Shown: positions 2 through 23,686 of the stretch, in pieces
Position numbering within the stretch: the stretch's first letter is position 1
Layout: each line of letters opens with the position of its first letter
Source: a virus
Virus record (IMG/VR): IMGVR_UViG_3300006108_000048
Span: 1-27,473 of that record
DNA: 27,473 nt
Strand: one strand, 5' to 3'
The notes under the pieces: model-generated
Databases searched by the model: none
The model's input: only the letters and a program-made list of their open reading frames with translations
Told to the model about the DNA's origin: nothing
Position numbers and translations under genes: made by a program

Positions 2-766
2 TTGGTCTTTTGATAATTGTTTGAAAGTCAAACCACCTGCACCACCAGTTTCTTTATCTTTATCACCAAAATTAGGAATAACTGTTTTCCAATCAACATT
101 AGCTAGTGCTTTTTCAGCCAACAAAAATGAACCTATTGCACCACCTGCCATAAGTCCATATTTTAAGAAACCAGATTTCTTGACTTTGCGAGTTATGCGA
201 CCAACCAATGAAGGTCTTTTACCAGTTAAAACTTCAACTATTTCTTCTAAATGTGTTTCTTTTTGGTCGTCTAATTGTTTTCTATACTTTTTATCTTTTT
301 TGGCCTTTTGTTTTTCCCACTTGGCAATGTTTCTTTCCAAATTAAATAATTTAGCCAAAATGTCGGCCGCAGTATCTCTCGCCTTCATTGGAACTTCTGA
401 ACCAGAACTGACTTTAGAAATTAAAAGATTCTTTTGTTTAACAGAAACCTTTTTTTCTTCTTTTTCTTTTTTTGGTTCTTGATTGCCCACAGGCGCAACG
501 TCAGGTTTTACTTCTTGTGGAGTTTCTTCTTTGGGAGTTACTGCTTGTGGAAATAGTTTTGACATTAATGGTAATGTCATAAAGTCCTGATAACCAGGTT
601 GAGAAGCAATTTCTGCTCCCATTTTCTGTAATCGTTCATCACTTAGGTCTCTTGATACCGCTTTGACCTTTTTCATTTGTTGTGGCGTCAAATGTGAACC
701 ACCATCGGAAAGTATTAAACCGATTTCACCTTTATTTAATAGTTCTTTAAATGTTTTGTTGTCCAT
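2..766 (-). CDS. Partial large tail protein, candidate tape measure (C-terminus beyond window)
   Basis: The reading frame opens with ATG at 766 and stays open to the window edge (255 codons), so the C-terminal part is missing. The N-terminal 75 residues are helical and polar (start MDNKTFKELLNKGEIG). A Pro/Glu/Lys-rich linker follows, then a strongly charged helical region likely to form a coiled coil (around residues 125-190). A hydrophobic Gly/Ala/Leu segment at about residues 199-218 resembles a membrane-spanning stretch, and a Gly-rich linker comes after it. The start codon directly abuts the TAG of the gp26 frameshift extension, which suggests translational coupling. I do not recognise the family. 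The position right after a frameshifting chaperone, the coiled coil and the membrane-like segment fit a tape measure protein (T4 gp29 role), but a tail-associated lysozyme or another hub protein is also possible. Confidence 0.6.
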   Translation of the reverse strand, partial: MDNKTFKELLNKGEIGLILSDGGSHLTPQQMKKVKAVSRDLSDERLQKMGAEIASQPGYQDFMTLPLMSKLFPQAVTPKEETPQEVKPDVAPVGNQEPKKEKEEKKVSVKQKNLLISKVSSGSEVPMKARDTAADILAKLFNLERNIAKWEKQKAKKDKKYRKQLDDQKETHLEEIVEVLTGKRPSLVGRITRKVKKSGFLKYGLMAGGAIGSFLLAEKALANVDWKTVIPNFGDKDKETGGAGGLTFKQLSKDQ

Positions 767-1680
767 CTATCGTTTCATTGAAGCTTGTTGTTTTATTCTT
801 TCATTTTCTTCTTCAATATACTGAGCCAACATAGCGATATAAATGTCCCTTTCCCACGGTATCATATTTTCAAGTTCCGTGAGAGAATACTTATGGTGTT
901 GCATCAAAGAGAAATTAGTTTTATAGTAATTTCTCAGGTTATCATGACAAAATATTATACGAAAAAACTTTCGAGACCTTCCATACTAATCGTATGGTCA
1001 AAACCGCATTTAGAACACTTCATTTCAATCTTCTTGTTCATCTTTGGTAGATGATTAAAGAAATCTTCTAGTTTACTGAATTGCTCTTGATTCAAAGATT
1101 CAATAAATTGCATCAATTCTTCTCTTGGTGTTTCAGCCGCATAATAATATTGTTCACCATCAAAAATATAATCAATACTATCTAATACCACTTCAAATGC
1201 AATATCTACAGCCGAATCTTTGTTAGAAAGTTTATTAACCAAAGAAAACTCTGGATATTTCATCTTAATAGTAATCTTATCGTTAATTTTAATCTCATCA
1301 GAACTATCTGGATCAAATTCAACTTTAACATCCAAAATATTAAACTTAGCCAACATCTTACTATTACATTGTTCACCATTAACTTCATTGGTACAAACGT
1401 ATTTGTTTTCTACAATCTCACCAACAGACCTTGCACGAAGGTTTAAAAAGTAATATTCAACATCGATTACTGGTAACTTATCGATATCGATGCCTTCTGT
1501 AATGGTACAATTTGTTAATACCTGACGAATGTTTCTTTCAATCGTTTCTTTATCATCCGCTTCCATGGCCATCATCAAGTTTTTTTGTTCTTTAACTAAG
1601 AACGGTCTAAATTTAATCTGTTTTTTAGATAATGGTAAATCAAGGTCATAGACCGGTGCATCAATTTTTGGTAAAGCCAT
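767..1680 (-). CDS. gp26 -1 frameshift product (tail assembly chaperone, gpGT-like)
   Basis: A -1 slip on TTTTTTC (967-961) would carry ribosomes past the gp26 stop into an open frame ending at TAG 769-767. The slip would add 64 residues and give a fusion of about 304 residues. The extension is coherent and helical: it includes the stretch YSLTELENMIPWERDIYIAM and ends in a charged helix (YIEEENERIKQQ). The only ATG in this frame (904-902) has no Shine-Dalgarno sequence and would drop the well-formed helix before it (LRNYYKTNFSLM). The -1 frame is open from 985 down, with no ATG before 904. In lambda, the gpG/gpGT pair made this way chaperones the tape measure protein. I infer the same role. 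A stand-alone small protein starting at 904 is the alternative. Confidence 0.6.
955..1680 (-). CDS. 26: Baseplate hub / tail assembly protein gp26
   Basis: This 241-residue protein matches the T4 gp26 type (208 residues in T4; T4 baseplate protein family), which is needed to assemble the central hub of the baseplate. The N-terminus reads MALPKIDAPVYDLDLPLSKK, followed by the conserved region KFRPFLVKEQKNLMMAME. Four cysteines stand in two pairs (C96/C105 and CxxC at 222-225), which could bind zinc. A clear GAGGAG Shine-Dalgarno sequence lies 7 bases before the ATG. The gene lies 20 bases after the tube protein gene in the same leftward operon. Its last sense codons contain a slippery TTTTTTC, so a longer frameshift product is likely to be made as well. 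Confidence 0.85.
   Translation of the reverse strand: MALPKIDAPVYDLDLPLSKKQIKFRPFLVKEQKNLMMAMEADDKETIERNIRQVLTNCTITEGIDIDKLPVIDVEYYFLNLRARSVGEIVENKYVCTNEVNGEQCNSKMLAKFNILDVKVEFDPDSSDEIKINDKITIKMKYPEFSLVNKLSNKDSAVDIAFEVVLDSIDYIFDGEQYYYAAETPREELMQFIESLNQEQFSKLEDFFNHLPKMNKKIEMKCSKCGFDHTISMEGLESFFV
961..967 (-). promoter_or_regulatory. Programmed -1 frameshift site TTTTTTC
   Basis: In the gp26 frame the heptamer reads T TTT TTC, a canonical X XXY YYZ slippery sequence, and it is followed by GTA and the stop TAA. A -1 slip would re-pair both tRNAs and continue with CGT ATA ATA into a frame open for 64 codons. I see no strong downstream hairpin or upstream Shine-Dalgarno-like stimulator. The nearby stop codon may itself help by slowing the ribosome. 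Confidence 0.6.
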
Positions 1681-1700: not shown

Positions 1701-2300
1701 TCAAAATTTTAATGATGTTATATCGTTTACTAATCCAGTAGTTGCAGCCTGAACAAAACTCTGACCAAGACTTTGAACAGTATTGTTTTGCCATTGTGTA
1801 TATGCAAACACAACAGCTAATTTATGGTAACCTTCATTTGACCAATCCATATCTAATTGATTTACTGCAATTGGAAAGGCTTCTCTCAATACGGCCGAAT
1901 AAGACAAATTGTTTGTTGAACTGTATTGATTAACCGATACATCAACCGCATAGTTTGCTTTGTATTGAAAATTAAAATTAGATGATGGATTAACCAATTC
2001 TTGCCAAGCATCAAAGAAAATCTTTTCTTTCATATCATCACCAACAATAAAAGTCATAGTTATTTCATTATAAGTTGTATGATAAGGCATCTTTTCAACC
2101 GGCGCAGAACCAATTTTTCTTTCTGTCGTTTCGAATGTTCTACCTGGCATTTCTGCATTTTCGCAACGGAAACTTAAATTTCTACCAGCAGTAACATATG
2201 GTGACAAAACAATAGGTACCGGTATAGTTACATCAAACCTTGCCGGTCTGGCAACTTCCGTGTAAAAACTCGATTTGAATTGATTAAGATTGCCTGCCAT
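1701..2300 (-). CDS. Tail-tube-fold protein (gp19/gp54 type)
   Basis: The 199-residue protein has the layout of phage tail tube subunits: an ARPARFDVTIPVPI strand near the start, SFRCENAEMPGRTFETTERK, and YSAVLREAFPIAVNQLDMDW before the closing strands. In T4 such proteins form the inner tube (gp19, 163 residues) or start it on the baseplate (gp54, 320 residues). The location among hub and baseplate genes, away from a sheath gene, favours a tube initiator or hub-proximal ring, but this is inference. The gene starts 1 base after the stop of the upstream gene and shares its leftward operon. GGAAAG about 4 bases before the ATG can act as the ribosome binding site. Confidence 0.75.
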   Translation of the reverse strand: MAGNLNQFKSSFYTEVARPARFDVTIPVPIVLSPYVTAGRNLSFRCENAEMPGRTFETTERKIGSAPVEKMPYHTTYNEITMTFIVGDDMKEKIFFDAWQELVNPSSNFNFQYKANYAVDVSVNQYSSTNNLSYSAVLREAFPIAVNQLDMDWSNEGYHKLAVVFAYTQWQNNTVQSLGQSFVQAATTGLVNDITSLKF

Positions 2301-11028: not shown

Positions 11029-13854
11029 ATGATACAAAACGACCAAAAAACATCGTTATTAGTTCCTTTTCAATTACCTGAATTTATTCGGGATAATCCT
11101 TCTTATGAAAATTTTGTTCTATTTCTTAAAGCTTATTATGAGTGGATGGAATTAGAAGGGAATGTATTGGATCGTAGTAAGAATCTATTAAATTATGATG
11201 ATATTGATTCTACCACCGATGAATTTATTGATTATTTCTTTAATGAATTTTTAGTCTATTTTCCAAAAGATATTCTTGCCGATAAGAAAAAAGTTGCCAA
11301 GATTGCCAAAGAGTTATATAATGCTAAAGGCACACCTGCATCATATGAGTTCTTATTTAAAGTTCTCTATAACTCTCCTGTTGATTTCTTCTTCACCAAA
11401 GATGCCGTATTAAGAGCATCTTCAGGAACATGGTATGAATCCAAAAGTCTTAACTTAGATACAACCAATGCAGATTTTCTCTTAACTAAAAACTATTATG
11501 TTTTTGGTGAAACAACCAAATCTTTGGCAGTCATTGAAAATGTTAGACAAGAAGGTTTAAAAACAATTCTTTATCTTTCAAACATTCAACGAGGATTTCA
11601 ATCTGGTGAATTTATTCGCATTTTAGATACAAACTATCAAGATGCCACATTTACAGATGGTGCATTAAGAGCCAAAGTCGTAGGACAAATTACACAAGTT
11701 AATATTGATCCAAACAATAGAGGACTGTTATACAATCCAGGTGATCCAGTATCAATCTATGGTGGTTTAAATTCAAATACAGGTATTGGTGCTTCTGCTA
11801 GTGTTTCAGTTACCACAAAAGGTTCAATTCAAAGTATTCGTGTCTTTAATGAAGGTTATGGTTATCGTGTTGCACCAAATACAGTCATTTCAATTTCTGG
11901 TGGTTCTACTGCTGCGGCAACTGTTACTGGTGTAGATACTGATCCAAACAAAACTGCAAACGTATCTTTAGTACCTATTAATACTATTGGTAATCAATCA
12001 AGTATTAAACTTAATGCAAACAATTATAATTTTACGGCAAATGCAAGAGCAAATTTAAATTGTTCTTTGGCCAACGCATTTAGTTTTATTTCATTTACAA
12101 CTTATCCTATTTCTGCGGTTATATTGACAAACCAAGGAACAGGATTATCTTCTGTGCCAACCATTACTGCTGATTCTTATTATCAAACAGACGATCCTAA
12201 TATTGTTGCAAATTTAAGAACTTTAGGTATTTTGGCACCATTACAGATTCAAAATGGTGGCCATGGTTATAGTGCAAACGATACAATCGTATTAACTGGT
12301 GGTGCAGGTTATGGTGCTCACGCCAATATTATTTCTGTATCAGCAAACGGTGCAATTACTGGTGTAAGATACACTTATGCAAATCCAACCGCAGGATTAC
12401 AATACTATCCATTAGGTGGAATAGGTTACAATCCAGGTAATTTACCTGCTGTATCAGTTTCTTCTGCAAACGTAGCAGCCGCAAATGCAGTTATTGTTGC
12501 ACCTGGTATTTTAGGTGATGGTGCAACATTCTCAACATCGGTTGACAAAATTGGTTCTATATCATCAATTCAAGTCACTAATCCCGGTAAAGATTACATT
12601 GATGTTCCAAGTATTTCTTTGAAGATTCAAGATATTTGTGTAAGCAACGTATCAGTTTCTTTAGTTCCACAAAAAACAAACAAGGTTTATCAAGGTGCTT
12701 CATTTAGTTCAGCAACCTATGCGGCTTATGTTGATAGTCTTACCAATTTGGTAAATTTACCAAATCCAGCAAACTCTTTATATAACTTGAGAGTTTATGA
12801 GTATAACAACACTAGACCTGATCCAACAAAACCATTAAAGATTGATACACCAAATGGTACATTGATATTAAATCTATCAACCAACTATTCAACATACAAT
12901 CCTGCAAGTAAGTATGATTCAAATGCAACAATCACTTATGGTGATGGTACCGCTAAGGCATCTGCGGTGTTTATTAATGGATTGGTATCATCACAAGGCC
13001 AATATATTAATTCTACTGGCCATTTAAGTGCATTTGACGTATTGCAAAGTTCTGAATATAATGACTTTACATATGAACTTACACTTGAAAAAGAAATTGC
13101 AGAATATAGAAACATTTTATTAGAATTGTTACATCCAGCCGGTACAAAAGTTACTGGTCGTTATTCAATGAAATCGGATGTAAGCACAACGTCAAGTTTT
13201 GTTTCTGGTTCTGTTGTAGGTCATACATTAGGATTCTATACAGGTAATCCAGGTTCTTCTGCAACGATTGTAACTAATTTTAATAATGCAAGTAATAACA
13301 TTATTCATTTCAATAGTTTGGTTGGTGCAAACTTAGAAAACTTTATTTTTGCAAACAACATTGTTGTAATGACCGATCCATATGGATTTGTTGTATCGTC
13401 TGGTGTGGCATCATCGACAGATGGTAACGCAAACAATGTTGTTATGACAGATAATGTATGGTTAACCTATGCCAATGTGGCTTACACTTATGCAAATTCT
13501 GGTGCAAACGTCATAAATATAACATCACTCACCAATTCTTATGACATTATTAATAATGGCAATTATAGAAATCCTAATAATAAATTATTAGATATTGTTC
13601 GTGTCGGTGACAAAGTATTGGTTGCAAACAATACACAAAAAACAGTAACAAAAATAGATTATGCAAATACCAGAATTTATTGTGATTCTAATTTTGCAAA
13701 CAATTCTATTTCTTTAATGTCGGTAAATAGAACATTTACAACAACAAATGTTCAAATCTATGGTCCATTGGGAACACAATACTTCCCATTGATTACGGAT
13801 GAATTAGGTAACGAAATCGTAACAGAAAATGGAAATTTCATTCTACTAGGGTAA
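11029..13854 (+). CDS. 7: Baseplate wedge subunit, gp7-like
   Basis: At 941 residues, directly after gp6 and upstream of gp8, this is the best gp7 candidate (T4 gp7: 1032 residues). T4 gp7 clasps the gp6 dimer and carries gp8 and gp10. The N-terminus is helical and conserved in type: PFQLPEFIRDNPSYENFVLF, LKAYYEWMELEGN, then KVAKIAKELYNAKGTPASYE and FLFKVLYNSPVDFFF. From about residue 190 the protein is beta-rich, with several Gly/Tyr repeats: SIRVFNEGYGYRVAP near 270, LQIQNGGHGYSAND near 405 and SSIQVTNPGKDY near 510. Residues 680-710 return to a helical ELTLEKEIAEYRNILLELLH. A beta-rich Asn-rich tail follows. Identity as gp7 rests partly on position. Confidence 0.7.
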   Translation: MIQNDQKTSLLVPFQLPEFIRDNPSYENFVLFLKAYYEWMELEGNVLDRSKNLLNYDDIDSTTDEFIDYFFNEFLVYFPKDILADKKKVAKIAKELYNAKGTPASYEFLFKVLYNSPVDFFFTKDAVLRASSGTWYESKSLNLDTTNADFLLTKNYYVFGETTKSLAVIENVRQEGLKTILYLSNIQRGFQSGEFIRILDTNYQDATFTDGALRAKVVGQITQVNIDPNNRGLLYNPGDPVSIYGGLNSNTGIGASASVSVTTKGSIQSIRVFNEGYGYRVAPNTVISISGGSTAAATVTGVDTDPNKTANVSLVPINTIGNQSSIKLNANNYNFTANARANLNCSLANAFSFISFTTYPISAVILTNQGTGLSSVPTITADSYYQTDDPNIVANLRTLGILAPLQIQNGGHGYSANDTIVLTGGAGYGAHANIISVSANGAITGVRYTYANPTAGLQYYPLGGIGYNPGNLPAVSVSSANVAAANAVIVAPGILGDGATFSTSVDKIGSISSIQVTNPGKDYIDVPSISLKIQDICVSNVSVSLVPQKTNKVYQGASFSSATYAAYVDSLTNLVNLPNPANSLYNLRVYEYNNTRPDPTKPLKIDTPNGTLILNLSTNYSTYNPASKYDSNATITYGDGTAKASAVFINGLVSSQGQYINSTGHLSAFDVLQSSEYNDFTYELTLEKEIAEYRNILLELLHPAGTKVTGRYSMKSDVSTTSSFVSGSVVGHTLGFYTGNPGSSATIVTNFNNASNNIIHFNSLVGANLENFIFANNIVVMTDPYGFVVSSGVASSTDGNANNVVMTDNVWLTYANVAYTYANSGANVINITSLTNSYDIINNGNYRNPNNKLLDIVRVGDKVLVANNTQKTVTKIDYANTRIYCDSNFANNSISLMSVNRTFTTTNVQIYGPLGTQYFPLITDELGNEIVTENGNFILLG

Positions 13855-17362: not shown

Positions 17363-20300
17363 ATGTCGTTAAATTTTAATGTTGATCCATACTACGATGA
17401 TTTCGATGCTTCGAAAAATTATCATCGTATTCTTTTTAAACCTGGTTATGCGGTTCAGGCTCGTGAATTAACACAAGCACAAACAATTTTACAAGACCAA
17501 GTTACCAAGTTTGCGGATAACATTTTCAAACAAAACACTCCAGTAACCGGTGGTCAAGTTACAACAAACTTAAATTGTAATTATGTTAAATTACAAACTT
17601 CTTACTTAAATGTTCCAGTTGATGTTTCTGTATTTTCTGGTCAAATGGTTCAAAGTGCTGATGGTTCTGTTCAAGCTAAAGTTTTGGCTGCCATTCCTGC
17701 AACCGGTACAACAGCATCAGATGATCCTCCTACATTAATACTATCTTATAAAACTGGTACACAATTTACTGATAGCCAAGTAATCTATGTTACTGGTACA
17801 AATGCAGCTGCTGTTGCAGCCACACAATCTTCAACAGGATTAAGTTCTGTTGTATCGATTGCACAAGGTGTATTCTACATTTCTAGCAATTATACAAATT
17901 CTGCTGGCAATCAAATTTCTAACGGAACATTTGTTCAAGTTAATCCACAAACAATCGTTATTTCAAAATATTCTAATACACCAACCAATCGTGTTGGTTT
18001 GAATATTACTGAATCGATTATTAATTTTACAGAAGATGCAACACTATTGGATCCAGCAATTGGTGCATCCAATTATCAAGGTCCAGGTGCAGACCGTTAT
18101 CAAATTACATTAACACTTGAAACACGACCAATGACTTTGGGTAATGATGATACATTCATCGAATTGCTCCAAATTACCAATGGTAACGTAGTCAAGATTG
18201 TTAATGGTACAGTTTACAATGTAATTGATGATTATTTTGCAAAACGTGATTATGAAACTAATGGTGATTACATTGTTAATGACTTCAAATTAACACCAAA
18301 AGCGAATACCGCAGATTCTTCAAACAACACATATATTATGAGTGTTGGTAAAGGTCTTGCTTATGTTCACGGTTATCGTATTGAAAATCCAGGTGCGGTT
18401 GATATTACTTCAGACCGTGCAAGAACTTTAGCCTATTCAAATACTTCTCCAGTATTCATTGATTACGGTTCTTATTTTTATGTAGATACTGTAAAAGGTA
18501 ATAACGCATCTTTCTTTGATACTACAACATATGGCCAAGTAGATTTACATTGCGTATCTCCTGCAAACGTTAATACATCTAATGCAGCATCATACTATTC
18601 TACTGTCGTTGCAACCGCTAACATTCGTGGTTTAATTTATACCAGTTCAACAAATGAATTATTAACAAATACTTACATTTATAGAGCTTATGTTTCTGGC
18701 GTTCAAAATCAAACACAAAGTAATGTGGCCGTTTCTGCAACATCCAACTCAATTACTTTGCCAAGTTATTTCTCAGCTGCAAACAATGCTTATGTTGGTG
18801 TAACTATTACTATCAATTCTGGTGCAGATGCTGGAGATTTTAGAACAATTAGTTCTTACAATGGTGTAACCAAAACTGCAACAATCTCAACAAATTGGAC
18901 AGTAACACCATCAACTGGCGATGCATTTACATTAAATTTTGATACAGCAGATATTGAAACTATCGTTGCTGCAACTAAATCTTCTTATCCTGCTACTGTT
19001 GTTGGCACCGCAAACATCAATCCAGAAAGTAAAGTTAATGGTCTTGCTTCTGGCGATGCAATTTTAGAAAATCCAACTGTGCCAGAATTGTTATTCACAG
19101 TCGGCAGTCCATACCTTTCTACATTAATCAATACTTCTTATACTACACAACAAGTATGGAGAAACATATCATTTACACCTAGTGGTTCTGGTTATTCTGC
19201 TCAATTAAATTACCAAGGCGATTACCTAGGTGTTGTAAAACATTTTGGTACAGCAAGTTCAACACTTTCACACGATTTAATTAAACAAAATTACGTTGTT
19301 GTTGTAACGGCTACTGGTTCTGGTTGCACATTGAATGTTGGTGATAATGTGCCTTGGACAACTAGTGGCAGAACAGTTACTTTAAATAGTGATTCTTCTA
19401 TTGCAACTTTTGCTGCTACAGATGTTGGTGGAACATTTACCGCTACCATTTATGCAAAAGTATTTGTTCAAAATGGCCAAAATACTGGTCACATTCTTAA
19501 AACCAAAACATTAATTCGTGCTAACACTAGTGTAATTAATACAAGCAATACTGCTGTTACAGGAAATGTTTTTGTCGATGATACTACCACATATTCAACC
19601 GGTCAAGTTTATATCCTGAATGGTGGATTGTCAACACCTGGTTCTAAACAATCTTTATATCTCTCTGATGTTAAACGTGTTGTTAAGATTATTGATACTA
19701 AGAGTGCAAATACTGCACCAACGGTAGCAATGTTATCTAATCCAGCATACGATATTACCAATGCATACACCTTTAACAGTAACCAAAAAGATGACCATTA
19801 TGGCCATGGTTACATTACATTAAAACCTGGTTACCCACAACCTCAAGGTAATATTCTTGTTCTTGTTGATTACTACCAACATTCTGGTGGTGATGGATAT
19901 TTTAGTATCAACTCTTACATCAATGAACAATATCAACAGATTCCACAATATACAAGTAGTCATGGAACATTATACAATTTAAGAGATTGTATTGACTTTA
20001 GACCTGCTCGTGCAAATGCTACAACAGCATGGCAACTCCGTTATTCAAATGGTGCATCAAATAAAGGTGTATTCTTGCCTGTTGATTTAACTACTTTTGT
20101 TGGTGATTATACTTACTATCTTGGCCGTCAAGATAAATTGGTATTGACAAAAGATAGAAGTTTCAAGATTATTGAAGGAACTCCTTCTATCAATCCAATT
20201 TTCCCATCTGAACCAGATGGCGCATTGGTAATTGCACAATTGACACATAATCCATACACAGGTTATTTGCCAACGGAAGCACCAACAGGATTTGTTCCAG

Positions 20301-23300
20301 ACCTCAGCATTGTAAAAGTAAAACACAAGCGTTACACAATGCAAGACATTGCTGGTCTTGAAAATAGAATTAATAATATTGAATACTATACTTCATTGAG
20401 TATCTTAGAACAAAATGCACAGAATCTACAAATTTCTGATGCGTATGGTTTGAACAGATTCAAAAATGGTATTATGGTTGATGATTTCTCAAGTTATTCA
20501 GCTGCTGATACTACCAACTTAGATTTCTCTGCTGCAATTAATCGCCGTGAGAGAACGATGACTGCAATGCAGAATGTTCAGAATTTCCCATTGAAATCGT
20601 CTGCTTTGGCATACAACATGGGATTACCATCTAGTGCAACATTGTCTAGTTTAGGTTTTGGAGTTAATTCTGATGGTTATGTAAATTACTTTACTTTACC
20701 ATACACAACAGCAAATGCAGTTACACAACAAATTGCTTCAAGAGCAGTCAATGTTAACCCATTTGCTTTCTCATCACTTGAAGGTACACTTACATTATCA
20801 CCAAACGTAGATAATTGGGTAGATACAAACTACGCACCTTCTTTGTTGATTACTGATCCTAATTTGCAAATTTTCCGTTCAAATTCGCAATCAATCAACG
20901 TATTGTCTGCTGGTGATTGGAAAACAATTTCTGGTACAACATACACAACAAGCACATCTGTTGTTAACCATGGTGCATTTAATGGTCCATTTGGTGGTGT
21001 AGTAGGTTATACCGCAACAAGCGTATATTCCAATTTACAACAATCGCAAACAAATATTGTTGGTAACTACGACAAGATTGACAATACCTATTCATTAAAC
21101 AACAATTATATTACTGATGTTTCTGTATTGCCATATATTCGTGCTCAACAGGTTGCTGTTCGTGCAAAAGGATTATTGTTTAATACACCAGTAGAAACTT
21201 TATTTGATAATACTGATGTTAAAAAGTATGTGCGTAAAACAAACATCATCGAATTGACTGGTGTTTCTGGTACATTCTCAGAAGATGATGTAATTGGTTA
21301 TTACACAGGTGGTGTATTTACTGGTACTGCAAGAGTTATTGGTGTATACAACTATGGTACAAACCAAACAAGATTGTATGTTGCTGCTGATCCATTTACA
21401 ACATCATACACAACTACTGGAACAATTCAAAATGGTTATTTTGATGCCAATGGTGTGTATCAATCAACAACTGCAAGTGGAACATTTGCATCAGCAAAAC
21501 ATTTTGGTGGCCGTATTGCAAATGCAATCTCTACTACTAAGATTCAATTATCTCCATTAGCTTCTGCAACAGATAATTACTATACAGGTAACACCATCTA
21601 CATCAATGCTGGTACAGGTGTTGGTCAATCTGCAACAATTAGTTCTTATGTTGCCGCAAACCAAACTGCGTTCTTGAGTTCAACTATTAGTGCTGCAAAT
21701 TCTGACATCTATTCTATCGGTTCTTTTGCAACTAATGAAGTTGGTTCTTTCTATGGTATCTTTAATTTACCTGCAAACCAATTCCATACTGGTCAAAGAG
21801 TATTCCGTGTTGATAATGGAGTAAATGGTAATTCTGGTTCTTCAACAACATATGCTCAAAGCACTTACTATGCTGAAGGTTTACAAACAACTTCACAGAG
21901 TTTAGATTTTGGTGCTTCTCCTGCTGGAGCCAAAAATACATTTACTGCAACACAATATCAGAATGTTAATTCTGTTGTAACAACATATAGTCCTTATGAC
22001 CCTGTTGCACAAACATTTATTGTGTCTAAAGACAATTATCCAAATGGATTGTTCTTAAGCTCTGTTAAATTGTTCTTCAGAACTGCCGCTAGTGATACCA
22101 CACCAATAACATTGTCTATTGTTGGTACATTAAATGGTTCACCAAGTGGTACTACATTGGATAATTCAATCGTTACTGTAAATGCAAGTGATGTTAATAC
22201 TTCTGAAACTCCACATTATTTGGATTCTTCAACATATACAGAATTTGTATTTAATGCTCCAGTTTATATTCAACCAGGTGTTTTATATGCCTTTATTTTG
22301 AAATCAAATAGTGATGAATATACTTTATGGTCAGCATCTAGTGGAGATACTGCGGTTTCTTCAACAGTTAAAAACTTGCCAACTGATGCAACACCATCTA
22401 CTGTAACTAAAATTGGTTCTGCACCTTATGTTGGTGCTTTGTTCTTATCACAAAATGCTCAAACATGGACTGCTGACCAAAATCAAAGTTTAATGTTTGT
22501 AATGAATCGTTGTGTGTTTAATACAAGTGCTCAACCTAATATCACTTATGTTGTTCCACAAAAGTTACCACAAAGAACATTGGTTGACCAATCTTTGGGT
22601 TATTTCTTAAATGCAAATAATATTTCTTCTACAACAGATTTAGTAACAAATTCTGATGTATTAGTAGATGCATTTAACATTACCACAACAGATTTTGTTC
22701 CAACGACAACAGGAATCAACTATTCTTATAGTGGAACATTATCATCAACTGGTTCACATACTCCAATTACCAATATTACTCCAGGTAAATTTGGTACTGC
22801 AACTGCTGATGACATCTATTTGAATGATGGTAAAGGTGAAAGAATTTTACAAGCAAATTCTACTAACTCTTTAATATTGTATGCAACTTTAACTTCAAAT
22901 GATAATACTGTATCACCAGTTATTTCTGATGCAGGTTTATCAGCCTATGCAATTCAATGGAACATTAACAATTGCCCATTATCAAATAGTTTAATTACTA
23001 TTACTAATGCTGGTTCAGGTTATAGTAATAATGCTACTGGTAACACAACTGTTACAATTTCTGCACCTACAGGCAAAAATGGTGTTCAAGCACTTGCGGT
23101 TGCTAACGTGGCAAATGGTTCAATTCAATCCATTTACATCACACAACCAGGCTCTGGATACATCACAACTCCAACAATTTCAATTGCTGATGCAAATACC
23201 ACACCAGGTCAAAATGCTACTGCAATCATTACTGGTGAAACATCCGTTTCTGGTGGTCCTGCTCTTGCCAAGTATATGACTAAGAAAGTTGTATTGGATG

Positions 23301-23686
23301 CTGGATTTGATTCTGGTGACTTAAATGTTTACTTAACTGCATACAGACCAGTTAATACAGACATTTCTGTATATTACAAAATTTTAAACAGGAATGATAC
23401 ACAAAAGTTTGAAGAAGGTAACTGGCAATTAATGACCATTATTAATTCTGGTGATTCAAGTTATTCACAGTTAAGAACAGATACTATTGAATACACTTAT
23501 GCACCTGGTATTAATAATACTGCCAATGGTTATGTTTCTTACACAAGCACAAGTGGCCAGAAATATACAACATTTAGTCAATTTGCAATTAAGATTGTAT
23601 TGACAACCACAGACAAGACTGCTGTTCCTTTCTTGACTGATATGCGTGCCATTGCACTTCCCGCTAACGTAAATACAACATTCTAA
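17363..23686 (+). CDS. Giant DUF4815-type virion structural protein
   Basis: This 2107-residue protein is the largest in the window. Its start (DPYYDDFDASKNYHRILFKP, GYAVQARELTQAQTILQDQV) is the signature of DUF4815, found in large structural proteins of T4-like cyanophages. The core runs to about residue 1000 and includes RYTMQDIAGLENRINNIEYY near 990. After it come many beta domains, among them a repeated module at about 461-510 and 1389-1440 and a Gly/Tyr repeat at about 1877-1958 (ITNAGSGYSNNATG, SIYITQPGSGYITTP). The position after gp8 is where T4 has gp9/gp10, so a peripheral baseplate or fibre-attachment role is likely, though similarity to gp10 is not visible. A good ribosome binding site (AAGGATAAAAA) precedes the ATG. 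Confidence 0.8.
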   Translation: MSLNFNVDPYYDDFDASKNYHRILFKPGYAVQARELTQAQTILQDQVTKFADNIFKQNTPVTGGQVTTNLNCNYVKLQTSYLNVPVDVSVFSGQMVQSADGSVQAKVLAAIPATGTTASDDPPTLILSYKTGTQFTDSQVIYVTGTNAAAVAATQSSTGLSSVVSIAQGVFYISSNYTNSAGNQISNGTFVQVNPQTIVISKYSNTPTNRVGLNITESIINFTEDATLLDPAIGASNYQGPGADRYQITLTLETRPMTLGNDDTFIELLQITNGNVVKIVNGTVYNVIDDYFAKRDYETNGDYIVNDFKLTPKANTADSSNNTYIMSVGKGLAYVHGYRIENPGAVDITSDRARTLAYSNTSPVFIDYGSYFYVDTVKGNNASFFDTTTYGQVDLHCVSPANVNTSNAASYYSTVVATANIRGLIYTSSTNELLTNTYIYRAYVSGVQNQTQSNVAVSATSNSITLPSYFSAANNAYVGVTITINSGADAGDFRTISSYNGVTKTATISTNWTVTPSTGDAFTLNFDTADIETIVAATKSSYPATVVGTANINPESKVNGLASGDAILENPTVPELLFTVGSPYLSTLINTSYTTQQVWRNISFTPSGSGYSAQLNYQGDYLGVVKHFGTASSTLSHDLIKQNYVVVVTATGSGCTLNVGDNVPWTTSGRTVTLNSDSSIATFAATDVGGTFTATIYAKVFVQNGQNTGHILKTKTLIRANTSVINTSNTAVTGNVFVDDTTTYSTGQVYILNGGLSTPGSKQSLYLSDVKRVVKIIDTKSANTAPTVAMLSNPAYDITNAYTFNSNQKDDHYGHGYITLKPGYPQPQGNILVLVDYYQHSGGDGYFSINSYINEQYQQIPQYTSSHGTLYNLRDCIDFRPARANATTAWQLRYSNGASNKGVFLPVDLTTFVGDYTYYLGRQDKLVLTKDRSFKIIEGTPSINPIFPSEPDGALVIAQLTHNPYTGYLPTEAPTGFVPDLSIVKVKHKRYTMQDIAGLENRINNIEYYTSLSILEQNAQNLQISDAYGLNRFKNGIMVDDFSSYSAADTTNLDFSAAINRRERTMTAMQNVQNFPLKSSALAYNMGLPSSATLSSLGFGVNSDGYVNYFTLPYTTANAVTQQIASRAVNVNPFAFSSLEGTLTLSPNVDNWVDTNYAPSLLITDPNLQIFRSNSQSINVLSAGDWKTISGTTYTTSTSVVNHGAFNGPFGGVVGYTATSVYSNLQQSQTNIVGNYDKIDNTYSLNNNYITDVSVLPYIRAQQVAVRAKGLLFNTPVETLFDNTDVKKYVRKTNIIELTGVSGTFSEDDVIGYYTGGVFTGTARVIGVYNYGTNQTRLYVAADPFTTSYTTTGTIQNGYFDANGVYQSTTASGTFASAKHFGGRIANAISTTKIQLSPLASATDNYYTGNTIYINAGTGVGQSATISSYVAANQTAFLSSTISAANSDIYSIGSFATNEVGSFYGIFNLPANQFHTGQRVFRVDNGVNGNSGSSTTYAQSTYYAEGLQTTSQSLDFGASPAGAKNTFTATQYQNVNSVVTTYSPYDPVAQTFIVSKDNYPNGLFLSSVKLFFRTAASDTTPITLSIVGTLNGSPSGTTLDNSIVTVNASDVNTSETPHYLDSSTYTEFVFNAPVYIQPGVLYAFILKSNSDEYTLWSASSGDTAVSSTVKNLPTDATPSTVTKIGSAPYVGALFLSQNAQTWTADQNQSLMFVMNRCVFNTSAQPNITYVVPQKLPQRTLVDQSLGYFLNANNISSTTDLVTNSDVLVDAFNITTTDFVPTTTGINYSYSGTLSSTGSHTPITNITPGKFGTATADDIYLNDGKGERILQANSTNSLILYATLTSNDNTVSPVISDAGLSAYAIQWNINNCPLSNSLITITNAGSGYSNNATGNTTVTISAPTGKNGVQALAVANVANGSIQSIYITQPGSGYITTPTISIADANTTPGQNATAIITGETSVSGGPALAKYMTKKVVLDAGFDSGDLNVYLTAYRPVNTDISVYYKILNRNDTQKFEEGNWQLMTIINSGDSSYSQLRTDTIEYTYAPGINNTANGYVSYTSTSGQKYTTFSQFAIKIVLTTTDKTAVPFLTDMRAIALPANVNTTF

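Follow-up and report, generated by a model that had tools for sequence, protein, structure and literature searches.

A conserved T TTT TTN site near the end of gp26 in T4-like phages predicts short and long tail-assembly chaperones from a single gene

A conserved frameshift in the tail-assembly genes of long-tailed phages was reportedly described by Xu and colleagues in 2004. The abstract of a 2022 study by Vladimirov and colleagues is likewise said to describe a frameshift conserved across several T4-like groups, with T4 itself relying on genes 26 and 51. For lambda gpG and gpGT, tape-measure loading and recruitment of the tube protein have been described (reviewed in PMC5009743). Tail-assembly chaperone genes of T4-like phages were identified by Vladimirov, Gautam and Davidson (Virology 2022, 566:9-15), as cited in PMC10885494 and PMC12846349. 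According to a passage of the PRFect paper (PMC10885494), some T4-like phages have a short gene and a longer fusion copy in place of frameshifting, and a passage of PMC12846349 cites Vladimirov et al. (2022) for poly-T -1 signals within the TAC-N genes of T4-like phages. A preliminary description of the DNA analyzed here had expected a link between gp26/gp51 and a frameshift to be new; as this link was published in 2022 already, the gain of the present analysis is breadth, not a new principle.

The window, the whole stretch of 27,473 nucleotides that was analyzed (IMG/VR record IMGVR_UViG_3300006108_000048, uncultivated virus), contains the following features at the locus:

1701 to 2300, minus strand: tail tube protein, directly upstream of gp26 (PHROG 45, 8.4e-35; PF06841, 2.3e-4)
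955 to 1680, minus strand: gp26 (TAC-N), 241 aa, predicted short-form tail-assembly chaperone (PF12322, 1.5e-58; PHROG 150, 1.3e-63)
961 to 967, minus strand: slippery heptamer T TTT TTC, in phase with the gp26 frame, read off the sequence
767 to 961, minus strand: -1 frame extension (TAC-C, 'gp51'), 64 codons plus TAG
2 to 766, minus strand: probable tape-measure-like gene, directly after the extension stop, its 3' part lying beyond the window end

The PF12322 match of gp26 scored 198.5 bits against a cut-off of 24.5, and its AlphaFold2 model was confident (mean pLDDT 90.5). The gene ends in GAA AGT TTT TTC GTA TAA, with the single codon GTA between heptamer and stop. Read in the -1 frame, the sequence continues as FF|RIIFCHDNLRNYYKTNFSLMQHHKYSLTELENMIPWERDIYIAMLAQYIEEENERIKQQASMKR*, i.e., 64 residues beyond FF, up to a TAG at 769-767 that adjoins the ATG (766) of the following gene. 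The preliminary description was thus right that TTTTTTC lies in the gp26 frame close to the stop (967-961), that the -1 frame stays open for another 64 codons beyond it, and that the next gene starts right at the extension stop. As a control for chance, we counted 50 in-frame X XXY YYZ heptamers across 19 window genes; only the one in gp26 opens a -1 frame reaching more than 56 nt beyond the gene stop (188 nt). An in-frame AAATTTC, six codons from the end of a baseplate wedge gene (11029-13854), has a -1 frame open for 25 codons, 56 nt past the stop, and is probably a chance occurrence. The window is a contig fragment in which a single PF12322 copy was found. Positions 3378-24996 hold baseplate and tail fibre genes of the T4-like type, encoding a tube cap, several wedge subunits of the baseplate and fibre-like C-termini, and a very large ORF of 2107 aa spans 17363-23686.

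We consider it very probable that -1 programmed frameshifting on T TTT TTC yields a short and a long tail-assembly chaperone, as the arrangement of the sequence suggests. With both Phe codons of the heptamer in the P and A sites, ribosomes would in a minority of cases slip one base back, re-pair on TTT TTT and read 64 further codons, giving a gp26-gp51 fusion (TAC-NC) as the minor form, while most would terminate at the TAA one codon on and release gp26 (TAC-N). On the model of lambda gpG/gpGT, the tape-measure protein would be coated by many copies of the short form and few of the long one, and the C-terminal extension would recruit tail tube subunits; the binding of tape measure and tube, like the skewed ratio of the two forms, is proposed from this likeness. 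In T4-type phages the equivalent two products come from the paralogous genes 26 and 51. Counting against the proposal, the U UUU UUN sites assayed in E. coli, those with UUA and UUU, were less slippery than A AAA AAG (PMC5009743), and the search for a conserved RNA fold 3' of the heptamer, described below, found none.

The order at the locus is tail tube, gp26, extension and tape-measure-like gene, and the gpG/gpGT-type layout that the preliminary description had recognized is borne out by heptamer, open -1 frame and these neighbours. The product of the gene at 2-766, which is partial in the window, gave no family match of its own in Pfam and PHROG searches; its full-length relative (L007) has 585 aa and a Peptidase_M23 domain (1e-24). 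In this relative (L007:3915-5672) a hydrophobic segment accompanies the Peptidase_M23 domain, and in P-HM1 the neighbouring gene has a VanY-like peptidase domain in place of Peptidase_M23. HTVC008M has an annotated tape measure near its gp26/extension locus. The gene order bears on the possibility that the frameshift is real and both products serve only baseplate hub assembly, with no handling of the tape measure. T4 gp26 and gp51 are indeed known genetically as hub-assembly proteins (PMC3004832), but we regard this restricted role as improbable given the tail tube and tape-measure-like neighbours and the assignment of the gp26/gp51 genes as tail-assembly chaperones by Vladimirov et al. (2022), as relayed in PMC10885494 and PMC12846349. 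Moreover, gp29, the T4 tape measure, belongs to the hub itself, and hub and chaperone roles thus need not conflict.

A chaperone extension made by frameshifting should be told apart from an independent gene 51 with an internal start and translational re-initiation, the layout given in most public annotations. The extension is a protein with recognizable relatives: its residues 2-62 matched PHROG 634 ('baseplate hub assembly catalyst') at 4.8e-29, residues 3-47 matched the end of PHROG 150 at 1.4e-6, and the matching region corresponds to the C-terminus of T4 gp51. A match of the extension to Stealth_CR2 in Pfam (E=0.0039), under that family's cut-off, was taken as chance. In a tblastn search with the extension 639 phage records matched, and most alignments began with the FF at residue 1 of the query. 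Homology of the small frame therefore begins at the heptamer and not at the ATG at 904, which upholds the preliminary claim of a real protein beginning before that ATG; conservation starting only at the ATG, which would have spoken for a separate gene, was not what we found. The ATG at 904 has no Shine-Dalgarno sequence in front, as described, but it is not the sole ATG of the frame: it is the first of several (others occur in ENM, IAM and ASM), and a TTG at 907 lies just ahead of it. Many relatives carry Ile in its place (e.g., L054, L060, L071, L074, L078), and the extension of Desulfovibrio phage 7757 contains no ATG, GTG or TTG. Besides, a -1 stop stands immediately 5' of TTT TTT in five distinct segments and two codons before it in nine more; where it is immediately ahead, as in P-HM1, phiAS5 and Melnitz, the frame can be entered only at the heptamer. 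Because of these stops, the start-free extension of 7757 and the change of ATG 904 to Ile, translation from an own start is not the general mechanism. GenBank records do annotate gp51 from internal starts, and Vibrio V05 and Rhizobium AF3 have an ATG overlapping the stop of gp26, which makes re-initiation possible as well in those two. Nevertheless, conservation sets in at the heptamer and includes the residues ahead of the start codon, single fused gp26-gp51 ORFs are known in T4 gp51, RB43 and Campylobacter CC_R7, and we judge an independent gene 51 to be very improbable.

The conservation of the site was assessed in a tblastn-guided main survey of 186 single-gene loci with a readable gp26 end and -1 extension, comprising 159 distinct 260-nt segments. 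T TTT TTN, where N is C, T, A or G, was present in all 186 and in 27 of 27 more distant marine loci; as the surveyed loci are akin to each other, these counts do not represent independent events. By our script's count the heptamer always lay 2-3 codons from the gp26 stop in the 186 loci. TTTTTTC at three codons accounted for 151 of the 159 segments and TTTTTTT for five, with one each of TTTTTTG, TTTTTTA and TTTTTTC at two codons; the extension was 57-70 codons long in the 154 complete cases. The second codon may be TTC, TTT, TTA or TTG, encoding Phe or Leu in the 0 frame, while the six Ts are constant. Since the last base and the 0-frame residue vary and the six Ts stay, it is the T run that is kept, not the 0-frame peptide. 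Even the GC-rich genes of ACP17 and Xanthomonas X1 retain the heptamer. It was absent in T4 (L003), avDM3 (L090) and Ursula (L095), all two-gene phages, and in one further locus, L075. There (L075:1436-2155) the gp26 frame is broken just upstream of the heptamer position and the FFR... extension is intact, which makes an indel or sequencing error likely. Scans of viral contigs starting from ACP17, V05 and HTVC008M gave 1, 2 and 11 loci, respectively. The alignment of homologues proposed earlier thus favours a frameshift, with the heptamer in every intact single-gene homologue; homologues lacking a slippery site and offering a start codon and ribosome binding site for the small frame instead did not turn up. 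The site is therefore conserved widely in T4-like phages.

Outside this set, Ackermannviridae-type gp26 genes of Salmonella phage S118 (L195:2468-3435) and Vibrio phage D494 (L196:2483-3399) are followed by a homologous-looking -1 extension (...SMPWHLDLL...) that is not annotated as such. The site there reads GAG ATT TTC or TCA CTT TTC, which falls short of a canonical heptamer, and frameshifting would require a shorter slip on U UUC.

In bacteria, transcription can also slip on homopolymer runs. The fusion might accordingly be produced by RNA polymerase slipping on the T run instead of by the ribosome (PMC5009743 treats both kinds of slippage), but with a run of just 6-7 Ts, short for efficient slippage, and a T TTT TTN register relative to the gp26 codons that is fixed in every locus, as ribosomal but not transcriptional slippage needs, this is very improbable too, and the least likely of the alternatives.

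To relate the ribosomal frameshift to the two genes of T4, PF12322 copies were counted in 25 complete phages. Two copies were found in all seven two-gene phages (T4, avDM3, CC_R7, Acj133, Ursula, RB43, 44RR), none of which has the slip site, and one copy in all 18 phages with a -1 extension. The window locus, with slip site and extension, corresponds to the one-copy layout. T4 gp51 (249 aa) consists of a PF12322 domain at 1-201 (3.9e-52) with a C-terminal stretch behind it, and its PHROG 150 match extends as far as position 280 of 282; T4 gp26 (208 aa) is the PF12322 domain alone, and the two align at E=2e-6. The AlphaFold2 model of a T4-type gp51 shows helices at 196-248 beyond the domain. 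The suggested tie to T4 genes 26 and 51 is thereby confirmed: gp51 is a gp26 domain plus extension, and an in-frame heptamer occurs in none of 21 T4-type gp26 loci. GLKEFF is kept in 18 of these 21, written as TTC TTT or TTC TTC, with G TTT TTT in one locus (L217). These phages provide a natural control, in that the heptamer is kept where one gene makes both forms and absent where a second gene supplies the long form.

Straboviridae V05, phiAS5 and Ah1 retain the one-gene layout. In the tree the gp51 rows of Tevenvirinae group together (100/100) and the gp26 rows do so more weakly (about 80/40); the 18 lie on one side of one branch with a support of 91/87, which is not conclusive. A single duplication in the Tevenvirinae lineage that replaced the frameshift fits this tree. 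As the root of the tree is not known, the direction from frameshift to duplication is our inference. It is conceivable, though we lean against it, that the one- and two-gene layouts were exchanged more than once, in Tevenvirinae and separately in Campylobacter phages. The slip site would then have decayed whenever a separate gene for the long form arose, and Ackermannviridae would retain their -1 extension after a shorter, non-canonical site, A TTT TC or C TTT TC. An independent duplication in Campylobacter phages was neither shown nor rejected, as a single gp51 clade remained acceptable in the AU test (p = 0.19). Campylobacter phage CC_R7 has a fused gp51-like ORF beside the terminase gene (L093:1863-2603, L252); its second PF12322 gene is highly divergent and lies about 10 kb from the first. 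In RB43 (L199:2501-3794) two PF12322 genes are adjacent on the same strand; the first is a full gp51-like gene, and the second matches profile positions 60-219.

Two elements near the heptamer were considered as candidate stimulators:

977 to 981, minus strand: GAAGG within gp26, possibly Shine-Dalgarno-like, 9 nt ahead of the heptamer, weak candidate
909 to 935, minus strand: inverted repeat GAGAAATTA-n9-TAATTTCTC, beginning 25 nt past the heptamer, not supported as stimulator

Among P-SSM2-like relatives, 69 of 82 (84%) use GAG for the Glu 9 nt upstream, compared to 31% elsewhere in the gene, the highest share of 13 conserved Glu columns, and 76% encode the following Gly by GGA or GGG. The two codons form GAGGGR, which is Shine-Dalgarno-like and has a dnaX-like spacing; p-values for the bias are to be taken as indicative, as the sequences are phylogenetically dependent. 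In the family of the window the bias is slight (GAG 28% vs 13%, second of 14 columns) and the window itself has GAAGGT, so that an upstream stimulator at this locus is a weak proposal. The hairpin at 909-935 found no support as a stimulator: its fold z-score (-0.10) was no better than that of shuffles, RNAalifold gave no such structure, and covariation was within controls. No conserved RNA structure was found downstream of the heptamer by folding, RNAalifold or covariation, and Rfam gave zero matches in the window.

The breadth of the survey extends to freshwater and marine uncultivated phages and to phages of Desulfovibrio, Rhizobium, Acidovorax, Xanthomonas and Pseudoalteromonas. Hundreds of T4-like records carry the small 'gp51' or 'baseplate hub assembly catalyst' ORF from an internal codon, or leave it uncalled; our data indicate that this ORF encodes the C-terminal portion of a fusion with gp26. 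Possibly new, but small, are the absence of the heptamer from T4-type gp26 genes that still encode FF, the upstream bias towards GAGGGR, the range of hosts over which the site occurs and the non-canonical site of Ackermannviridae.

Compared with lambda gpG/gpGT, the locus is alike in its short and long forms from one gene with a predicted -1 frameshift near the 3' end, and in the position of that gene between tail tube and tape-measure genes, here with a conserved in-frame heptamer near the end of the short gene and an open -1 frame. The slippery sequence differs, and no sequence-family link was found. A PDB fold search with the models of gp26 and T4-type gp51 gave no significant match. The HK97 chaperone 2ob9 (gp13) appeared at ranks 14 and 28 with E above 2 and a probability of 0.12-0.25; as this fold link is not significant, we do not claim common descent with lambda gpG. 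In BFVD the best named matches were known gp26-like baseplate hub proteins. The TAC locus of Vandenendeviridae and Andersonviridae shares a -1 frameshift at a poly-T motif at the TAC-N end (PMC12846349); compared by slip site, its motif is GTTTTT and that of the window T TTT TTC. Closest is the T4-like TAC-N/TAC-NC set of Vladimirov et al. (2022), as far as it is represented in PMC12846349 and PMC10885494, with gp26/gp51, PF12322, PHROG 150 and 634 and a poly-T -1 site in common; the window differs from it in coming from an uncultivated virus whose frameshift is not annotated. T4 itself has the same parts, gp26 being the short form and gp51 the short-form domain plus extension, but keeps them in two separate, divergently oriented genes without the heptamer, whereas the window has one gene with it.
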